DNA of 9,561 nucleotides from Chloroflexota bacterium (GTDB taxonomy: Bacteria > Chloroflexota > Dehalococcoidia > SHYB01 > JACPQI01), in NCBI GenBank assembly GCA_016190545.1, contig JACPQI010000069.1, positions 1 to 9,561 of the forward strand, written 5' to 3'. The translations under genes were made by a program, and so were the position numbers. Of this stretch, positions 1,613 to 8,418 are shown one piece after another. Under the pieces are notes generated by a model that saw nothing but the letters and a program-made list of their open reading frames with translations, searched no databases and was not told where the DNA came from. Position 1 is the first letter of the stretch. Each line of letters opens with the position of its first letter.

Positions 1613-2140
1613 TTACGGCTCGCGCCCTCCCTGGCGCTGCTCCTGCTCGCGTCTAAGGCGAGCGCGCTCCCGACTCTCGATGGAGTGGAGAACCTCTTCT
1701 ACCGCCATGCGCCCGACCGGGCCCGACGCGTACATGGAGCCCAGCACTGTCCCACCCCTCCCGAGCAAGAACTCCGCCGGCTGCATATGCTCACCATCGG
1801 GCGGGTGGTTTCCCCACCAGGCTCCGATGGCATCCCCATCCGCCTGGGTGCAACCATAGGCCACGGCGTAGGTCAGGCCCTGCGTCTGCACGACCGTGCG
1901 CGCCTGTTCTTCCGTGTCCACGCTGGCTATCAGGATTGAGCAACCCATCGCCTCCAACTCTGCCTTGCGCTTCTCGTACGCGGCCAACTGCCGCATGCAG
2001 TAGGGTCACCAGTGTCCACGGTAGAAGAGGAGGGCCAGGTAGCGCGACGGCAGCTCCTCCGGAAGCGTGGTCGTCCCTCCTGAAAGCAGCTTGAGGGTCA
2101 TCGAAGGAAACCGGGTCCCTTGCTGGAGCTTCTCTCCCAT
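1613..2140 (-). CDS. Peroxiredoxin-like (AhpC/TSA, redoxin) selenoprotein with a UxxC motif; in-frame TGA at codon 45
   Basis: Translated from the ATG at 2140, preceded by AGGAAG with a 6-nt gap, the frame encodes a thioredoxin-fold redoxin of 175 residues. It starts MGEKLQQGTRFPSM and has the strand LALLFYRGHW directly before codon 45. Codon 45 is TGA and is followed by PYC (46-48) and the helix MRQLAAYEKRKAELEAMG. Peroxiredoxin-like relatives read GHWCPYC here, so the TGA replaces exactly the N-terminal, reactive Cys. The frame on both sides is conserved in style and otherwise open. The second half has the expected 'SILIASVDTEEQA' strand-helix and a 'PAEFLLGRGGTVL' strand. A SECIS-like hairpin follows the TGA. 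I infer selenocysteine, giving a UPYC redox centre that would reduce peroxides or disulfides in the cytoplasm; no signal peptide is visible. The alternative is a recent TGC-to-TGA nonsense mutation. An automatic caller would start the gene at the internal ATG at 1996 and lose the active site. The gene lies between the DUF3179 remnant and the radical SAM gene on the same strand. Confidence 0.78.
1978..1996 (-). promoter_or_regulatory. Bacterial SECIS-like hairpin in the redoxin mRNA
   Basis: Read on the minus strand, bases 1996-1990 (AUGCGGC) pair with 1984-1978 (GCCGCGU) in seven consecutive pairs, one of them a U-G wobble. The loop is AGUUG (1989-1985). The loop begins 16 nt after the UGA and has G at its second position followed by U. 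As I recall the bacterial SECIS consensus, it asks for a small apical loop with G in the first two positions, about 16-37 nt after UGA. This fits at the short end of that range. Such a hairpin would bind SelB charged with Sec-tRNA. No thermodynamic fold was computed. Confidence 0.6.
2006..2008 (-). other. Probable selenocysteine codon (UGA, residue 45 of the redoxin)
   Basis: On the minus strand the codons run TGG, TGA, CCC, TAC, TGC, read as W-U-P-Y-C. The TGA is the only stop between the ATG at 2140 and the true stop at 1613, and it stands at the reactive Cys position of the CxxC motif. Confidence 0.75.
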
Positions 2141-2198
2141 GCTTTACTTCCTGCTCGTCATAGCTTCATGCGTGACGCACGTTGACGACGACAACCGG

Positions 2199-2222: not shown

Positions 2223-2480
2223 ACGGTACTGGGCGGTGTCCGGCTTGAACACCGCCCAGCTTAACCAGAACTGGCCAGACCAATTCACGAGAGGCCGAAG
2301 CCTGCGGCTCGGCAGCGAGCCGGGCGCCGCCGTTCCTAACAGGTCCCACCTGGTTCCGGTCTGGTCATCCACAAAGTCTTTTTTGTCCTTACGGAATGTA
2401 CGCTTGACGTGATCGACGTCCGGGCCATAGACGGCGTGGGGCGCACAACGCTGCTTCCTCTGCAGGTCGGTCAGGGCTAC
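2202..2480 (-). pseudogene. C-terminal remnant of a DUF3179 protein
   Basis: About 92 codons stay open up to the stop at 2202-2204. They include FVDDQTGTRWDLLG, then SLPSRRLRPL, then FWLSWAVFKPDTAQYRG. This is the C-terminal signature I know from DUF3179 proteins (D-x-x-T-G-S-x-W-x-x-x-G, then x-x-R-L-x-P, then F-W-F-x-W-x-x-F-x-P-x-T). A full DUF3179 protein is around 300 residues or more. Here everything upstream is replaced by the DUF427 gene in another frame, and no start with a ribosome site precedes the fragment. I therefore call it a remnant left by deletion or recombination. It sits directly between the DUF427 stop and the redoxin leader. Confidence 0.6.
2229..2259 (-). other. Strong 11-bp stem-loop inside the DUF3179 remnant
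   Basis: Bases 2229-2239 pair perfectly with 2249-2259 around a 9-nt loop. On the minus strand this would form in RNA running from the DUF427 gene toward the redoxin. No T-run follows on either strand, so a standard intrinsic terminator is not supported. It may still attenuate or stabilise the mRNA. Confidence 0.45.
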
Positions 2481-2869: not shown

Positions 2870-4165
2870 TCAGGCGTCGTCCGCTAGGCGGATGCCCATG
2901 AACTGCCATCGGGCGTGGGGTGGGAAGAAGTTTCGGTAGGTAGGGCGGATATGAGAAATGGGAGTGGCGCAGGAACCTCCCCTCAGCACCATCTGGCCGG
3001 ACATGAACTTGCCGTTGTACTCGCCCACGGCGCCTTGGGGCGGGCGGTACCCAGGATAGGGGCCGTAGGCGCTCCGAGTCCATTCCCATACGTCGCCAAA
3101 TATCTGCTCGGTCCCGAAACCCTTCCCCGGCGCGGGGAGGGGACACAACGCCTGAGACTCCTGGAAGGTGCCTTCAATGGGCAGGCCGGCGGCGACATGC
3201 TCCCATTCCGCTTCCGTGGGCAAGCGCTTCTCAGCCCAGCGGGCGTAGGCATCCGCTTCATAGAAGCTGACGTGGCAGACGGGGGCCGAGCCTTCAATCT
3301 TCTCCATGCCGCGTAGCGTCATCTGCCACCAGTGGCCTTCGCTCTTCTCCCAGTACAGCGGCGCATCCCAACGCTGCCGTTGTACTGTATCCCACCCGTC
3401 AGACAGCCAGAACCTGGGACTGTGATACCCGCCATCTTCCATGAAGGAAAGGTACTCCTCATTTGTGACGAGTCGAGACGCAATCCTGAAGGGCTGGAGG
3501 AAGACCTGGTGCCTCTGTAGCTCATTGTCGAAGCAGAACCCGTCACCCCTATGGCCAAGGGAGGACAGCCCGCCGGCGAACTCAACCCAGCGCAGAGGAG
3601 AGGGCCGAGGCTTGCTTGGCGTATGGGCAATCGGCGGCTGGTACACAGGCCGCAGAGGATTGCTGGCGAAAACGTGCTTGATATCCGTGAGGAGAAGCTC
3701 TTGGTGCTGCTGTTCGTGCTGGAGGCCCAGGGTGATGATAGGGGCTATCGTGGACATCTGCTCTTCATTCGCCTTTGCGACGAGCGCCAGCACCGCCTCG
3801 TCAACATGCTTGCGATAGCGATAGACCTCATCCACCGTGGGACGGGAGAGCAGGCCTCGTTGGGGCCGCGGATGGAAGGCGCCAACACCTTGGTAATAGG
3901 AGTTGAAGAGGTACCGAAAGAGGGGGTGGAATGGCCTATAGCCCGGCGCAGTAGGCGAAAGAAGAAAGGTCTCGAAGAACCAGGTGGTGTGGGCGAGATG
4001 CCATTTGGGTGGACTGACGTCTGCCATGGACTGAATGACGAAATCCTCAGGAACCAGGGGTGTGCACAAGGCCTCGGTCGCTTGGCGTACCTGCTTGTAT
4101 CTGTCACCTAACGAGGAAGCGAGCTTCGCAGCCGTTGCCGGAGACGCGCTCGGAGAAGTGCTCAC
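2870..4165 (-). CDS. egtB: Ergothioneine biosynthesis sulfoxide synthase EgtB
   Basis: This 431-residue non-heme iron enzyme joins hercynine to a thiol (gamma-glutamylcysteine, or cysteine in some types) with oxygen, giving the sulfoxide precursor of ergothioneine. An N-terminal DinB-like helical domain (about 15-170) carries the iron ligands: H59 in HLAHTTWFFE, and H150/H154 in HEQQHQEL. A C-terminal formylglycine-generating-enzyme-like domain (about 190-430) follows, with RLPTEAEWEHVA (314-325), DVWEWT (358-363), VLRGGSC (393-399) and the final YRNFFPPHARWQFMGIRLA. I cannot decide the thiol substrate from sequence alone. No egtA, egtC or egtE is in the window. The GTG start is supported by a strong Shine-Dalgarno site. 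Only 23 nt separate it from the egtD stop, so the two genes form one operon. Confidence 0.93.
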   Translation of the reverse strand: MSTSPSASPATAAKLASSLGDRYKQVRQATEALCTPLVPEDFVIQSMADVSPPKWHLAHTTWFFETFLLSPTAPGYRPFHPLFRYLFNSYYQGVGAFHPRPQRGLLSRPTVDEVYRYRKHVDEAVLALVAKANEEQMSTIAPIITLGLQHEQQHQELLLTDIKHVFASNPLRPVYQPPIAHTPSKPRPSPLRWVEFAGGLSSLGHRGDGFCFDNELQRHQVFLQPFRIASRLVTNEEYLSFMEDGGYHSPRFWLSDGWDTVQRQRWDAPLYWEKSEGHWWQMTLRGMEKIEGSAPVCHVSFYEADAYARWAEKRLPTEAEWEHVAAGLPIEGTFQESQALCPLPAPGKGFGTEQIFGDVWEWTRSAYGPYPGYRPPQGAVGEYNGKFMSGQMVLRGGSCATPISHIRPTYRNFFPPHARWQFMGIRLADDA

Positions 4166-4188: not shown

Positions 4189-5178
4189 TTATCGTGGCGT
4201 TGCCAGGGCCAGCCCAAAAAACTCTTGCCTATCTGTGTACCAGCGCTCCAGCGCTAGCCCCGCCTGTTCCAGCATCCTAGCGGTCGAATCACGGGTGAAC
4301 TTGTAGGAGTTCTCGGTACAGATGGTCTCTCCCGAGGAAACCTCCACCTGGAGGCCCACGTCCCGCACTGTGACGGTCTGCTGGAATGTGGCTCGCAGGT
4401 GCATCTCCACGCGTTCGCATTTCTTATTGTAAAAGGCCACGTGGTCAAACGCCTCGGGCTGGAAGTCAGCGTTGAGGCCGTTATTGATTACTCGCAGAAT
4501 GTTGCGATTGAACTCCGCGGTGACGCCGCTCTTGTCGTTATAGGCTGCTTCCAGCCGCATGAGGTCTTTTTGGAGATCGACGCCGAGGAGCAGGTGATCG
4601 CTGGGGGCCAGCCCGCTCTGGACCTGATGGAGCAATCGTAGGCGTTCGGATTCGTTTAGGTTTCCGATGGTGCTGCCCAGGAACAGGACCAGCCGCCTGC
4701 CGTGCCGGGCTGGAAGGCACGGGATGTGCCGCTCGAACCCTCCGACGACGCCGCGGACTGAGAGGAATGGGTATGCCTGGAGCAACTCAGTGGCTGCGGT
4801 GCGGAGCATCGATGCATTGACGTCGAACGGCACATAGCGGACCGGCGTGCCCTTGGTTGTGAGGACATTGAATAAGAGGCGTGCCTTGGTGGATGAGCCA
4901 GACCCCAGTTCCACAATCTCCTCGGGGCCGCAGGTGTCAATGATCTCGGGGGCCAGAGCCTGCAAGAGCGATACCTCAGTGCGTGTGAGGTAGTATTCAG
5001 GCAGTGTGGTGATACGTTCGAAGAGGCCCGAGCCTACGTCGTCATAGAAGTACTTCGGCAAAAGGAACTTGGGAGAGGCGGTCAAGCCAATAGCCACATC
5101 ATCTGCCATGGCCCGCAGCGTGGCCTGGCTGTCATCAAAGATGTCAAAGTGGCATCGCCCGTTACGCCCGGTGTCCAA
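4189..5178 (-). CDS. egtD: L-histidine N-alpha-methyltransferase EgtD
   Basis: This 329-residue SAM-dependent enzyme trimethylates histidine to hercynine, the first step of ergothioneine synthesis. The sequence shows YFYDDVGSGLFERIT (43-57) and LPEYYLTRTE (59-68). The SAM-binding ELGSGSSTKARLL is at 90-102, with an acidic residue D119 at the end of the next strand. FLGSTIGN (166-173) ends in an Asn equivalent to mycobacterial N166. YNDKSGVTAEFNRN (213-226) starts with the Tyr equivalent to Y206. TENSYKF (288-294) holds the Glu and Ser that correspond to E282 and S284. All expected histidine-binding residues therefore appear present, and the length is normal. The start is a TTG with GGAGG four bases before it. 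It is the first gene of the minus-strand cluster and is followed by egtB. Confidence 0.93.
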   Translation of the reverse strand: MDTGRNGRCHFDIFDDSQATLRAMADDVAIGLTASPKFLLPKYFYDDVGSGLFERITTLPEYYLTRTEVSLLQALAPEIIDTCGPEEIVELGSGSSTKARLLFNVLTTKGTPVRYVPFDVNASMLRTAATELLQAYPFLSVRGVVGGFERHIPCLPARHGRRLVLFLGSTIGNLNESERLRLLHQVQSGLAPSDHLLLGVDLQKDLMRLEAAYNDKSGVTAEFNRNILRVINNGLNADFQPEAFDHVAFYNKKCERVEMHLRATFQQTVTVRDVGLQVEVSSGETICTENSYKFTRDSTARMLEQAGLALERWYTDRQEFFGLALATPR

Positions 5179-5498
5179 CTTCCCTCCCTGGTTAGATGGT
5201 CTCTTGAGGCCGTAGTGTGCAGGGTGACCAGCTTAACACAAGACCGCGCCGTTGTTCTAGATATGGTGCGCTGGTCCACCGGCCCTGGCTTGTACATCCA
5301 GGGGAAACCATTCAGTACGATGCCGTGACGGGCTGCCAAGATTCCTTTGAAAGAGTCTCACAATGTGGCTGATCCTGTTGACTTCAATGAGCAGGAGTTT
5401 GGCTAAGGTCATTAGAAGAGATGGAAATCCCAGCAAGTGCGAGCAGTTATGAGGCTCTTGGACGCTGCGAAGAGCGGCTGGGCGTTGTCTTCGTACCA
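5179..5498. other. Intergenic region upstream of egtD, no gene recognised
   Basis: Only short frames of unlikely amino-acid composition occur here on the minus strand. I recognise no domain in them and no good ribosome site. The egtD promoter should lie here. A TCTAAT hexamer on the minus strand (5411-5416) is -10-like but has no -35 at the right spacing, so no promoter is called. Confidence 0.5.
5183..5187 (-). promoter_or_regulatory. Shine-Dalgarno site supporting the TTG start of egtD
   Basis: GGAGG within a purine-rich stretch lies four bases before the TTG at 5178-5176. No ATG with a comparable site is found nearby. Confidence 0.6.
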
Positions 5499-5506
5499 TT
5501 CGTTTA
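5499..5506. repeat. Left 8-bp direct repeat, probable target-site duplication
   Basis: TTCGTTTA abuts the left terminal inverted repeat. It matches TTCGTTGA next to the right repeat at seven of eight positions. Confidence 0.5.
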
Positions 5507-5522
5507 GCTTTATTCATAATTC
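5507..5522 (+). repeat. Left terminal inverted repeat
   Basis: Reads GCTTTATTCATAATTC inward. The right end read inward is GCCTTATTCATAATTC, differing at one base. Confidence 0.6.
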
Positions 5523-5656
5523 CCGCCTAGCAGGAACGAATCTAGTTCGTGTCCGGTATGTCTGTGCTTCTTCACTATCTACTATTTCGTGACGCATTTC
5601 TACACTACTTGAAGCAAACTGGTGGTGTTTTCATGCGTTAAGCGCAATTTCCTATA

Positions 5657-5685
5657 TTGCATTTGTATCTGAGCCGTAGTACGAT
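5657..5685 (+). promoter_or_regulatory. Weak candidate promoter for the transposase
   Basis: TTGCAT (5657-5662) and TACGAT (5680-5685) are separated by 17 bp. The spacing is ideal but the hexamers match the consensus at only 3/6 and 4/6 positions. It would start transcription just before the leader hairpin. Confidence 0.3.
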
Positions 5686-5702
5686 GGGAGTATAGAAAAG
5701 GC

Positions 5703-5735
5703 GGAGCCGCAGGTGTTATCAGCACCTACGGCTCC
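5703..5735. terminator. Strong hairpin in the transposase leader; terminator-like on the minus strand
   Basis: GGAGCCG (5703-5709) pairs with CGGCTCC (5729-5735). After one C-A mismatch, AGGTG (5711-5715) pairs with CACCT (5723-5727) around a 7-nt loop. On the minus strand the stem is followed after three bases by TTTTCTAT, so it could stop antisense transcription leaving the element toward egtD. On the plus strand no T-run follows, and it would act as leader structure. Confidence 0.45.
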
Positions 5736-5745
5736 TAGCCAAACA

Positions 5746-5760
5746 GGAAGTGGGTCTTCC
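5746..5760 (+). promoter_or_regulatory. Small hairpin that could hide the transposase ribosome site
   Basis: GGAAG (5746-5750) is the only purine-rich site before the ATG at 5763. It is complementary to CTTCC (5756-5760) across the loop TGGGT. Pairing would sequester it and keep transposase synthesis low. The site is also 12 nt from the ATG, farther than usual. Confidence 0.35.
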
Positions 5761-5762
5761 CG

Positions 5763-6818
5763 ATGGCGTACTCCAATGGTAGAGTATCTACCAAGAATCC
5801 GCAACTTCCCCCCATCGTTGCCGAGCTTCAGGCTGTCTTCGAGGCCCTGCCGGATGAAGAACTCCTGACCAAGCTCCAAGGCCCAAGGCGACGCGGCAGG
5901 CCGGGATATTCCTCGAAGGTCCTCTGGCGTTGCTTCGTGGCCCACTACTACTTGGGCCTGCCGTCCGTCTCCGATCTCATTCGCACCCTCTACGACAACC
6001 CCTATGTCGCTAAGGATGGCGGGATTGAGTCGCCGTGGCAGATTCCCAGTCAACCTACCTTCTCCCGTTTCTTCGCCAAGCTGTCTAACCCGCTGTTCAT
6101 CTATGCGGTGCGTGATGTCATGCGGGAACTCACCCGTCGCATGTTCGCAACGCTCCCCGGCTTCGGGAAGTCGGTCGCCATCGACAGTACCGACATCAAA
6201 GCATGGTCTAATGGGGGCAAACGGGGCCGCAACCCCAAGAAGCACGGCGGGAAGGTGCGACAGCAAGCCAAGGTAGGAGAGGTGTCTGACTCCGATGCGG
6301 GCTGGATAGTCAAGAAGAACACCCACGGCAAGAACAAGTACGTGTGGGGCTACAAGGTCCACATCCTTGCCGACACGACGTATGAACTGCCTTTGGTAGC
6401 TGACGTGAGCAAGGGTAATCTCCACGACGTGAACAAGGCCACTCCACTTCTGCGGCAAGCCCGTCTCATTTGCAGCAAGTTCCATCCTGACTATGTGATT
6501 GCAGACAAGGGCTATAGCAGCGACCATCTCAGGCACATCATCAGGAGGCAGTATCGAGCGCAGCCCATCATTGACCCAAACCCAGCGAACAAGAGGGCTT
6601 TTGCGAGAGAACCTAAGACAGCCGAGTGGAAGGTGCTGTACAATAGGCGCACGGCCATTGAACGTCTGAACGGAAGGCTGAAAGACTTCCGCCGATTGGA
6701 CTCGGTTCGGGTACGTGGTGCCTTCAAAGTTCGTGTTCACGTCATGCTCTCAGTAGTCGTGCTTCAGGCACAAGCTCTTGCAACAGGTTCGCTAGCCTTG
6801 GTGCGAAAGGTGGCGTGA
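5763..6818 (+). CDS. DDE transposase (IS4/IS5 superfamily, DDE_Tnp_1 type)
   Basis: The 351-residue protein has an N-terminal helical DNA-binding region (about 15-115, DUF772-like, with GRPGYSSKVLWRC and PSQPTFSRFFAKL). A catalytic domain follows. D141 lies in AIDSTDIKAW, D248 in VIADKGYSS and E300 in YNRRTAIERLNGRLK. The last motif fits the YREK signature exactly: Y293, R296, E300, K307. VWGYKVHILAD at 194-204 and the HD at 221-222 are also typical of the family. All catalytic residues are present and the frame is unbroken, so the enzyme looks functional. The C-terminal stop overlaps the start of the next gene by one base (TGATG), which implies coupled translation. The inserted region is less GC-rich than its flanks. 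Confidence 0.93.
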   Translation: MAYSNGRVSTKNPQLPPIVAELQAVFEALPDEELLTKLQGPRRRGRPGYSSKVLWRCFVAHYYLGLPSVSDLIRTLYDNPYVAKDGGIESPWQIPSQPTFSRFFAKLSNPLFIYAVRDVMRELTRRMFATLPGFGKSVAIDSTDIKAWSNGGKRGRNPKKHGGKVRQQAKVGEVSDSDAGWIVKKNTHGKNKYVWGYKVHILADTTYELPLVADVSKGNLHDVNKATPLLRQARLICSKFHPDYVIADKGYSSDHLRHIIRRQYRAQPIIDPNPANKRAFAREPKTAEWKVLYNRRTAIERLNGRLKDFRRLDSVRVRGAFKVRVHVMLSVVVLQAQALATGSLALVRKVA

Positions 6819-7288
6819 TGCAAGATGACACGTATGAACGGGCATTGACTGAGCGCCTGCAGAATATATTGCGTCCTCTCGAAGAGCGGCTTGGAGGCCT
6901 GGAAGTTAAGTTCAATGACCTAAGCAACGCCATTGAAGGCCTACAAGAGAAATTGGGGCAAATTGAGGTTATGGAGTTCCAAAAGCAAGTCTCTTCTCTC
7001 CGAGACGAACTTAAAGAATTACGCGGTCGGCTGATAGGGACAGAACGTGCGATTGCCACCCTTGAACTTGATTTTATGCGAAATAGCCTAGAGGATTGGG
7101 TTCGCCAAGCCAAAGGCATGGATGACCCAGTCACCAAGGAGACAAGAGAATACCTTCTCCGTAGCTTTGAGTATGCTGCGGCAAGCATTAAGTTTTCAGA
7201 CGACCCCCTTAAAGCCTCATTCGACGTTCAAGTTAGATGGGAGAGTTATTTTAAAGAGCGAGGTCTTTCTGCTTTCTTAGAACAGTAA
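6818..7288 (+). CDS. Coiled-coil passenger protein of the insertion element, function unknown
   Basis: The ATG at 6818-6820 shares its A with the TGA of the transposase. A GTG one codon earlier (6815) is an alternative start. The 156-residue product is rich in Glu, Leu, Arg and Lys. Residues 5-85 show heptad spacing of hydrophobic residues, for example LQNILRPLEERLGGLEVKF and LRDELKELRGRLIG, so a long coiled coil is expected. The C-terminal half (WVRQAKGMDDPVTKETREYL, then SIKFSDDPLKASFDVQVRW) looks like a small helical domain. There is no signal peptide, membrane segment or catalytic motif that I recognise. Coupling to the transposase and its place inside the repeats suggest a partner or regulator of transposition, for example an oligomerisation or target factor. 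That is inference. It could also be an unrelated cargo gene. Confidence 0.75.
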   Translation: MQDDTYERALTERLQNILRPLEERLGGLEVKFNDLSNAIEGLQEKLGQIEVMEFQKQVSSLRDELKELRGRLIGTERAIATLELDFMRNSLEDWVRQAKGMDDPVTKETREYLLRSFEYAAASIKFSDDPLKASFDVQVRWESYFKERGLSAFLEQ

Positions 7289-7413
7289 TTCCTGGATAAG
7301 AATATGGGGGGCGGTTGATTTTGCTGCCGCCCGAGATTCATCTCCTCCCGTACAATCTCCCGTACCCTTTCCTCCGTTAGTTCGACCTTCTGTTTCTTCT
7401 GTTCCTTTGTCAA
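7246..7413 (-). CDS. Possible small charged helical protein at the right end of the element
   Basis: A TTG at 7413-7411 is preceded by AAGGAGG (7425-7419) with a 5-nt gap, an excellent ribosome site that directly abuts the right inverted repeat. The frame gives 55 residues, beginning MTKEQKKQKVELTEERVREI and followed by VREEMNLGRQQNQPPP. The first 25 residues form a highly charged helix of the 'LTEERVREIVREE' kind seen at the ends of coiled-coil proteins. The last third overlaps the 3' end of the passenger gene on the other strand and looks less protein-like. The ribosome site and the helix argue for a real gene or a gene remnant. The TTG start and short length argue against. Function is unknown. 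Confidence 0.33.
   Translation of the reverse strand: MTKEQKKQKVELTEERVREIVREEMNLGRQQNQPPPIFLSRNYCSKKAERPRSLK
7309..7332 (+). terminator. GC-rich hairpin after the passenger gene, weak terminator candidate
   Basis: GGGCGGT (7309-7315) pairs with GCCGCCC (7326-7332), with one U-G pair and a 10-nt loop, 21 bases after the passenger stop. The position suits a terminator, but no T-run follows. Confidence 0.35.
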
Positions 7414-7425
7414 CGCGCCCTCCTT

Positions 7426-7441
7426 GAATTATGAATAAGGC
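7426..7441 (-). repeat. Right terminal inverted repeat
   Basis: Its complement matches the left repeat at 15 of 16 bases. The mismatch is at the third base from the end. Confidence 0.6.
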
Positions 7442-7449
7442 TTCGTTGA
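7442..7449. repeat. Right 8-bp direct repeat, probable target-site duplication
   Basis: TTCGTTGA abuts the right inverted repeat and overlaps the first four bases of the -35 element of the next promoter. Confidence 0.5.
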
Positions 7450-7518: not shown

Positions 7519-8418
7519 GTGATATTCAACAACAAACGCATCGGCATCATTTACAACGAGAAGCTCGCCGCCGCCCGCTCGGTCGCAGAACGTCTCGCCC
7601 GTTCCCTCAAGCAGAAAGAGGGACTTCTCTGGGTCTGCGCCACGGGCCAGGACGAGCAGGCCCGGCGGGAGATGCCCGCTACCGGTCTTCTCATCACTGT
7701 CGGCGGCGATGGCACCATCCTGCGCGCGGCCTATCTGGCGGCGCCTGCCGGCGTGCCTCTGTTGGGCGTCAACATGGGCAAGCTGGGTTTCATGACGGAG
7801 CTCTCCGCCGAGGAAGCCCTCAAGAGCCTGCCCCACATCCTCTCCCGCGAAGGCCGTATTGAGGAACGTACCCTGCTGGAGATACGGGTGGCGCCGGGCT
7901 CCGACGCGCCGCGAGAAGGCCAGACGCCCAGCCAGCCTATGCTGGCCCTCAACGACGTGGTCATCGGGCGGACGGCCCTGTCCCGGGTTATCTATGTGGA
8001 CGCGCATGTGGACGGCGTCCATCTCGCCACCTACAAAGGGGATGGCCTCATCGTCGCCACGGCCACCGGCAGCACAGGCTATGCGCTGGCGGCGGGCGGC
8101 CCCATCCTCTACCCCCAGTCGCGCGATATGGTCATCAAGCCTATCTGTCCTCACCTCACGCTGGAGAACGCGGTGGTAGTCCCGAGCGCTGCTCAGGTGC
8201 GGCTGACCTTGCCCGCCGATCAGCGGGCCGCCCTGAGCCTGGACGGCCAGCTAGAATACCCTCTCCAGGGGAGCGACGTGGTAGAGGTAGTAGTGAGCCG
8301 GACGGTGGCGCGCTTTCTCCGCTGGCAGCCCGCCACGGCCTTTTACAGCACCCTCACCGCACGCCTGGGCCTGCGCAGCGCCAACAGCCGCCTGCCCGTG
8401 GTGGAGCACAAGGAATGA
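7519..8418 (+). CDS. nadK: NAD kinase (PpnK/NadK)
   Basis: The 299-residue enzyme phosphorylates NAD+ to NADP+ using ATP or polyphosphate in the cytosol. The catalytic and diphosphate-binding GGDGT is at 62-66, followed by LLGVNMGKLGFMTEL (81-95). The ND pair (145-146) and the long NAD-binding stretch GDGLIVATATGSTGYALAAG (174-193) match the family, as does SLDGQ at 240-244. Length and motif order are normal. The GTG at 7519 is the first possible start after an in-frame TAG at 7504-7506. Its ribosome site is weak (AGGGCGG very close). It heads a three-gene operon and its stop overlaps the next start as ATGA. Confidence 0.95.
   Translation: MIFNNKRIGIIYNEKLAAARSVAERLARSLKQKEGLLWVCATGQDEQARREMPATGLLITVGGDGTILRAAYLAAPAGVPLLGVNMGKLGFMTELSAEEALKSLPHILSREGRIEERTLLEIRVAPGSDAPREGQTPSQPMLALNDVVIGRTALSRVIYVDAHVDGVHLATYKGDGLIVATATGSTGYALAAGGPILYPQSRDMVIKPICPHLTLENAVVVPSAAQVRLTLPADQRAALSLDGQLEYPLQGSDVVEVVVSRTVARFLRWQPATAFYSTLTARLGLRSANSRLPVVEHKE

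Follow-up and report, generated by a model that had tools for sequence, protein, structure and literature searches.

The 9,561-nucleotide stretch of Chloroflexota DNA analysed here (hereafter the window) carries a redoxin gene on its minus strand at positions 1613–2140. The gene begins with an ATG at position 2140, ends with TAA and comprises 175 codons, with only one internal stop, a TGA at codon 45 (positions 2006–2008, minus strand). The TGA lies in the context FYRGHW-U-PYC-MRQLA, where U marks a proposed selenocysteine (Sec45) in a UPYC motif. These coordinates, the length of the frame and the lone TGA agree with the original prediction, which left the strand unstated; the plus-strand frame at 1613–2140 is unrelated and contains two TGA codons. 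That prediction also noted a ribosome site at the start, and we found a plausible one, AGGAAG (positions 2147–2152, minus strand), within 20 bases 5′ of the ATG. When the full frame was translated through the TGA, it matched the Pfam families AhpC-TSA (PF00578; 60.1 bits against a cut-off of 26, residues 8–132) and Redoxin (PF08534; 42.8 bits against a cut-off of 26.6, residues 6–118), and both matches spanned the TGA. Standard annotation yields a 127-amino-acid open reading frame without Sec, which starts at the ATG at 1996 (positions 1613–1996, minus strand). Such a stub had been anticipated from the behaviour of gene callers, and it has a counterpart in public databases: P0003, a protein of 127 amino acids that is 98% identical over the stub part and bears the title 'redoxin domain-containing protein [Chloroflexi bacterium]'.

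A scan for relatives, covering one genome per species with six search patterns, found 19 loci. Sixteen of these (L001–L015 and L018, in genomes G001–G016) are close relatives from Chloroflexota records, at 54–86% identity; the other three (L016, L017 and L019) are distant, at 39, 30 and 26% identity, respectively. In a profile alignment, the closest solved chain was 2cx3, a Bcp-type peroxidase (E = 7.8e-11) with an SPVC motif, the Cys of which we take to be the peroxidatic residue. Cys48 of the window protein fell in the column of this Cys, and Sec45 fell in the column of the Ser; in the next chain, 6q5v, the Sec45 column holds a Thr. Cys48 was invariant in all 26 aligned rows, which comprise the first group of TGA sequences and their Cys kin, as were R41, G42, W44, P46, R50 and L52. 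The classical peroxiredoxin motif PxxxTxxC (or TxxU) is absent, as Sec45 occupies its Thr/Ser column. Because Sec stands in for the Thr/Ser of this motif, with Cys48 at the position of its Cys, the active site resembles a thioredoxin-like UxxC (U45-P-Y-C48), and, judged from these alignments, the window protein is likelier to be a UxxC thiol:disulfide oxidoreductase than a classical peroxiredoxin. The description 'peroxiredoxin-like' given in the original prediction is apt for the superfamily, but at the site itself Sec takes the Thr/Ser place in the peroxiredoxin motif rather than that of the Cys.

In such an oxidoreductase, the Sec45 selenolate would attack a disulfide (or a peroxide), and Cys48 would resolve the selenenyl-sulfide, as in thioredoxin-like oxidoreductases. 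We propose these catalytic roles with less assurance than the selenoprotein reading. A rival that differs in mechanism only is that the selenoprotein is a true peroxiredoxin in which Cys48 attacks peroxide and Sec45 resolves. This mechanism would be in keeping with the AhpC-TSA match and with the alignment of Cys48 to the SPVC Cys of 2cx3, but it fits poorly with the missing PxxxTxxC motif, the placement of Sec45 in the Thr/Ser column of a UxxC site and the scores against the NCBIfam peroxiredoxin models, all of which were under cut-off. We therefore regard it as unlikely, if still appreciable, and favour the UxxC oxidoreductase.

The nearest genes around the redoxin, from a radical SAM gene to EgtD, are also encoded on the minus strand. 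Downstream lies a radical SAM gene (positions 87–1583) with a TrsS/Tes-like product that carries an HMPTM-type zinc ribbon. The product scored 361 bits against the TrsS model (cut-off 490) and 353 bits against that of Tes (cut-off 450); it is related to both, and no model is specific to it. Among the 16 relative loci, a radical SAM gene follows the redoxin gene in L001 alone; the L001 homologue shifts frame near position 7662. Upstream are EgtD (positions 5178–4189), which is over its NCBIfam cut-off, and EgtB (positions 4165–2870), which scored 602 bits against the EgtB model (cut-off 360) and 373 bits against that of SenA (cut-off 420). Together with a DUF427 gene they form a row at 5178–2477 that makes up an ergothioneine biosynthesis block. 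Between DUF427 and the redoxin gene we found a 3′ remnant of a DUF3179 gene (positions 2235–2432, minus strand; 24.4 bits, slightly short of the 27-bit cut-off). In L001, a whole DUF3179 gene (positions 4637–6295; 337.5 bits) lies directly upstream of the redoxin gene, and the EgtD–EgtB–DUF427 block may have replaced the rest of the DUF3179 gene in the window. DUF3179 is among the families for which PMC13188914 lists Sec forms; the L001 copy reads CPLC. Farther upstream, 17-nucleotide inverted repeats (positions 5506–5522 and 7426–7442) flank a transposase gene (positions 5763–6818), which is overlapped by an open reading frame for 157 amino acids (positions 6815–7288) with weak SMC-like matches only. 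The segment from 5506 to 7442 is a probable insertion element.

The position of EgtD and EgtB upstream of the redoxin gene on the same strand, both over their NCBIfam cut-offs, raises the possibility that the redoxin works with ergothioneine made by these enzymes. We consider this improbable. Within the flanks covered, neither gene lay beside the redoxin gene at any of the 16 relative loci, and the same was true of DUF427, the transposase, NAD kinase, GNAT and NUDIX; EgtD was also found in none of the 16 close-relative genomes, in a search run without a positive control. Because only the radical SAM and DUF3179 genes recur, and both in L001 alone, the gene context is of little help in assigning a substrate or partner to the putative UxxC oxidoreductase.

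The TGA at codon 45 was conserved in all 16 close relatives. The three distant loci have TGC (L016), ACA (L017) and ACG (L019) at this position. Because Cys stood at the site in one of the six scan patterns, the scan was not biased towards TGA forms. In all nine pairs tested, dN was far smaller than dS, at 0.04–0.16 against 0.32–2.04 in the codons before the TGA and 0.05–0.14 against 0.55–1.39 in the codons after it. These values point to purifying selection on both sides of the TGA.

We also took a census of 400 genomes drawn evenly from a larger set of Chloroflexota genomes, in which at most nine candidates were scored per genome and one of the 16 close-relative genomes (G001) was included. 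At E ≤ 1e-20, the census returned 26 matches in 24 of the 400 genomes, of which 20 had TGA and six had a Cys codon at the site. The matches consisted of the L001 gene again, 19 loci in 18 genomes that form a second group (group B; L046–L063 and L065) and six Cys loci in five genomes. Group B is distant (approximately 31% identical) and carries FYRGHW-TGA-SHCRRQL, that is, a USHC site, with TGA at all 19 loci. Exchange between Cys and Sec is usual among selenoproteins, with Cys as the usual partner of Sec. The original prediction of a selenoprotein subject to Cys/Sec exchange is thus upheld by the TGA of the close relatives and by the Cys codons of the census. In viral contigs, 37 stretches fitted a search pattern and none was a relative; one of the two patterns demands Cys at the Sec site, and TGA forms were reachable by the other alone.

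We then placed these sequences in a tree of the window, all 16 loci of group A (the close relatives), nine of the 19 loci from group B, 20 of the 25 Cys proteins, five of the six Cys loci and the six Trp/Ser proteins. The window grouped, strongly supported, with L001, L002 and L003, all of which have TGA. The first TGA group enclosed two Cys rows and six Trp/Ser rows, and group B formed one clade; the tree carries a long-branch warning. A pseudogene or sequencing error, in which a nonsense mutation to TGA has interrupted a CPYC redoxin so that either the downstream stub or nothing is made, might be suggested by the single base that separates TGA from TGC and TGT, by the existence of Cys forms and by the stub in public annotation, but this explanation is highly improbable given the identical TGA shared by all 16 close relatives and by all 19 loci of the distant clade, the lack of any other internal stop in the frame and the purifying selection on codons 1–44, which a stub would not need. 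The shared TGA in close relatives and in a distant clade and the selection on both sides thus indicate that the gene has not decayed, and the pattern named in advance as telling against a selenoprotein, a copy that alone carries TGA and further damage among relatives with Cys, is not what we found.

A bSECIS-like hairpin, which the original prediction did not mention, is present after the TGA. It spans codons 49–54 (positions 1978–1996, minus strand) and has a core stem of CGGC/GCCG and an apical loop of AGUUG; the loop, AGUUG or AGUUA, begins 16 nucleotides past the TGA. The codons within the hairpin appeared to be frozen. Among 22 codon columns that were invariant in amino acid across 17 sequences and have at least four synonyms, the only ones that never varied were R50 (CGG in 17 of 17) and A53 (GCC in 17 of 17). 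L52 was encoded by TTA or TTG in 17 of 17 sequences and never by CTN, and all three of these codons lie inside the hairpin.

We examined pairing, with RNAalifold among the methods, in an alignment of TGA sequences alone (36 sequences, 23 of them distinct), and some of the pairs proved compensatory. The 5-bp helix was paired in 97.4% of cells across the 36 sequences, compared with 13–53% in slid versions. The pair at columns 15–29 occurred as GC, CG or UA, with three of the 23 distinct rows unpaired, and the pair at columns 18–26 occurred as GC, GU or AU, changes that accompany an Ala-to-Val substitution at residue 53 in part of group B. Of the five core pairs, three are constant and are therefore uninformative on covariation. 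None of 500 shuffles reached the observed score for pairing plus covariation. For the two measures on which relatedness among the sequences weighs least, the observed number was reached by 64 of 500 shuffles (pairs in which both bases had changed) and by 43 of 500 (further pair types). The covariation therefore lends support without being conclusive.

We also applied a bSECIS rule taken from the legend of Fig. 2 in PMC13188914. The window conformed to this rule, as did 30 of 36 TGA loci, none of the six Cys loci and 34 of 2,000 synonymous shuffles of the window codons. Six of the 36 TGA loci departed from it, and the local helix is 4 bp in L003, L006 and L018. Single-sequence folding of the region after the TGA was no stabler than dinucleotide shuffles in any of the four stretches folded (z of 0.3 to 1.05), and a search of the window against Rfam gave no match at gathering thresholds.

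The machinery for Sec insertion was widespread in the close-relative genomes. SelD was over cut-off in 16 of 16 genomes, SelB was over its curated cut-off in 14 and SelA in 13, and 13 genomes had a tRNA-Sec with anticodon TCA (ARAGORN, best locus in each). All four components occurred together in 12 of the 16. The gaps, namely tRNA-Sec in three genomes, SelA in three and SelB over cut-off in two, all fall in records of metagenome-assembled genomes (MAGs). A first tally of tRNA-Sec, 16 of 16 with 15 over cut-off, proved too high, as ARAGORN assigned the remainder to tRNA-Ser (twice) and to tRNA-Trp/Arg/Ala. In all 16 genomes, the SelD match itself contained an in-frame TGA, which may be taken as a second sign of Sec use. 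By extension from these relatives, the genome from which the window comes presumably encodes the Sec machinery as well.

A tRNA-Sec was likewise present in 17 of the 18 group B genomes, in five of five genomes with the Cys form and in 28 of 44 sampled genomes that lack the redoxin gene. The last of these figures rules out tRNA-Sec as a marker of the redoxin gene; Sec is commonly used across Chloroflexota, so the presence of tRNA-Sec is not diagnostic.

We next considered which residue is read at the TGA, using the best 120 of 688 database matches. Eighty-eight of these 120 start downstream of codon 45, and the remainder have Cys (25), Trp (5), Ser (1) or another residue (1) at the site. The five Trp records (P0013–P0015, P0018 and P0070) include three in which HWWPYC was read. 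One possible explanation, which is a guess, is that a gene caller translated TGA in these five with a code in which TGA is Trp. The Trp records could instead suggest that UGA is read as an amino acid other than Sec, through a change of code to Trp or Gly or through near-cognate read-through. This is most improbable in view of the 25 Cys residues aligned at the site among the best 120 of 688 matches, the six Cys codons among the 26 census matches, the tRNA-Sec, SelA, SelB and SelD of the relatives and the conserved hairpin 3′ of the TGA. Moreover, TGA is an ordinary terminal stop in four of the ten window open reading frames checked, which argues against a general reassignment of the code.

Taken together, these data lead us to conclude with high confidence that the window gene encodes a selenoprotein in which UGA45 is read as Sec, the insertion itself being inferred. 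In the mechanism that we propose, SelB and tRNA-Sec would decode UGA45 as Sec, and the hairpin with an apical loop of AGUUR, 16 nucleotides after the UGA, would direct this decoding.

By analogy with the loci whose DNA was read, the 88 late-starting database records are probably TGA genes. The result would be a systematic annotation error, in which 88 of the best 120 of 688 matches are late-starting records without an active site, and surveys that use such clipped records would miss the function. Our data indicate the use of Sec in a redox enzyme of a widespread group that is known mostly from MAGs, with records labelled Chloroflexi, Dehalococcoidia and SAR202.

To relate the window protein to known families, we compared it with curated models and with published selenoprotein classes. 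No NCBIfam model was over cut-off for the window protein or for the two group B loci and two Cys loci scanned, and the best NCBIfam E-values were weak for all 26 members of the alignment. Among these models, the window protein scored best against the SelL-related NF040769 (34.7 bits over residues 11–89, far under the cut-off of 120). The model peroxi_PrxU (NF040737), for which coverage of the Sec form is read from the model name, gave 23 bits against a cut-off of 270. Sec peroxiredoxins of the TxxU type share the Pfam family and the presence of Sec with the window protein, but as they are described in PMC13188914, Sec comes last in TxxU, whereas it comes first in UxxC.

Among published classes, the window protein falls within the broad description of the Prx-like thiol:disulfide oxidoreductases given in Table 1 of PMC13188914 (PF00578, UxxC/UxxU), with which it shares the AhpC-TSA domain, a UxxC site with Sec first and the existence of Cys homologues. 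The Global Ocean Sampling survey has a corresponding 'Prx-like 1' family (pfam00578, UxxC, 225 sequences; Table 2 of PMC2398784), which is broadly defined and with which the window subfamily is compared here by description rather than by sequence. The redoxin family selenoproteins (PF08534, UxxC), listed in PMC13188914 along with a peroxiredoxin-like family (cd02970, UxxS), and 'Prx-like 3' of the same ocean survey (pfam08534, UxxC, 68 sequences) share the Redoxin domain and UxxC with the window protein; by contrast, the window protein scores higher to PF00578, and this comparison is likewise one of descriptions. PMC1088965 also describes a UxxC Prx-like family that is distantly related to Prx.

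The class is thus already known, and the window protein is a new example of it from a subfamily that is possibly undescribed. In the literature searched, no title or opening abstract concerned this subfamily, which could be covered by the survey of groundwater MAGs by Deng et al. (2026), cited in PMC13188914, or by Haft and Tolstoy (2025); excerpts of the deep-Sep paper (PMC12013277) and of two selenium surveys (PMC9402790 and PMC5029168) held nothing specific to Chloroflexota. More broadly, we put forward, as an evenly balanced proposition, that these genes constitute an undescribed Chloroflexota family. Its two Sec clades, UPYC and USHC (approximately 31% identical), would have diverged long ago yet share a recoding hairpin in the same place, and its members would be mostly clipped in databases. 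In this proposal, the hairpin would have frozen the codons that it covers and perhaps also the RQL(A/V) residues by the active site. A codon-frozen hairpin of this kind could sharpen models of the recoding signal for Chloroflexota.
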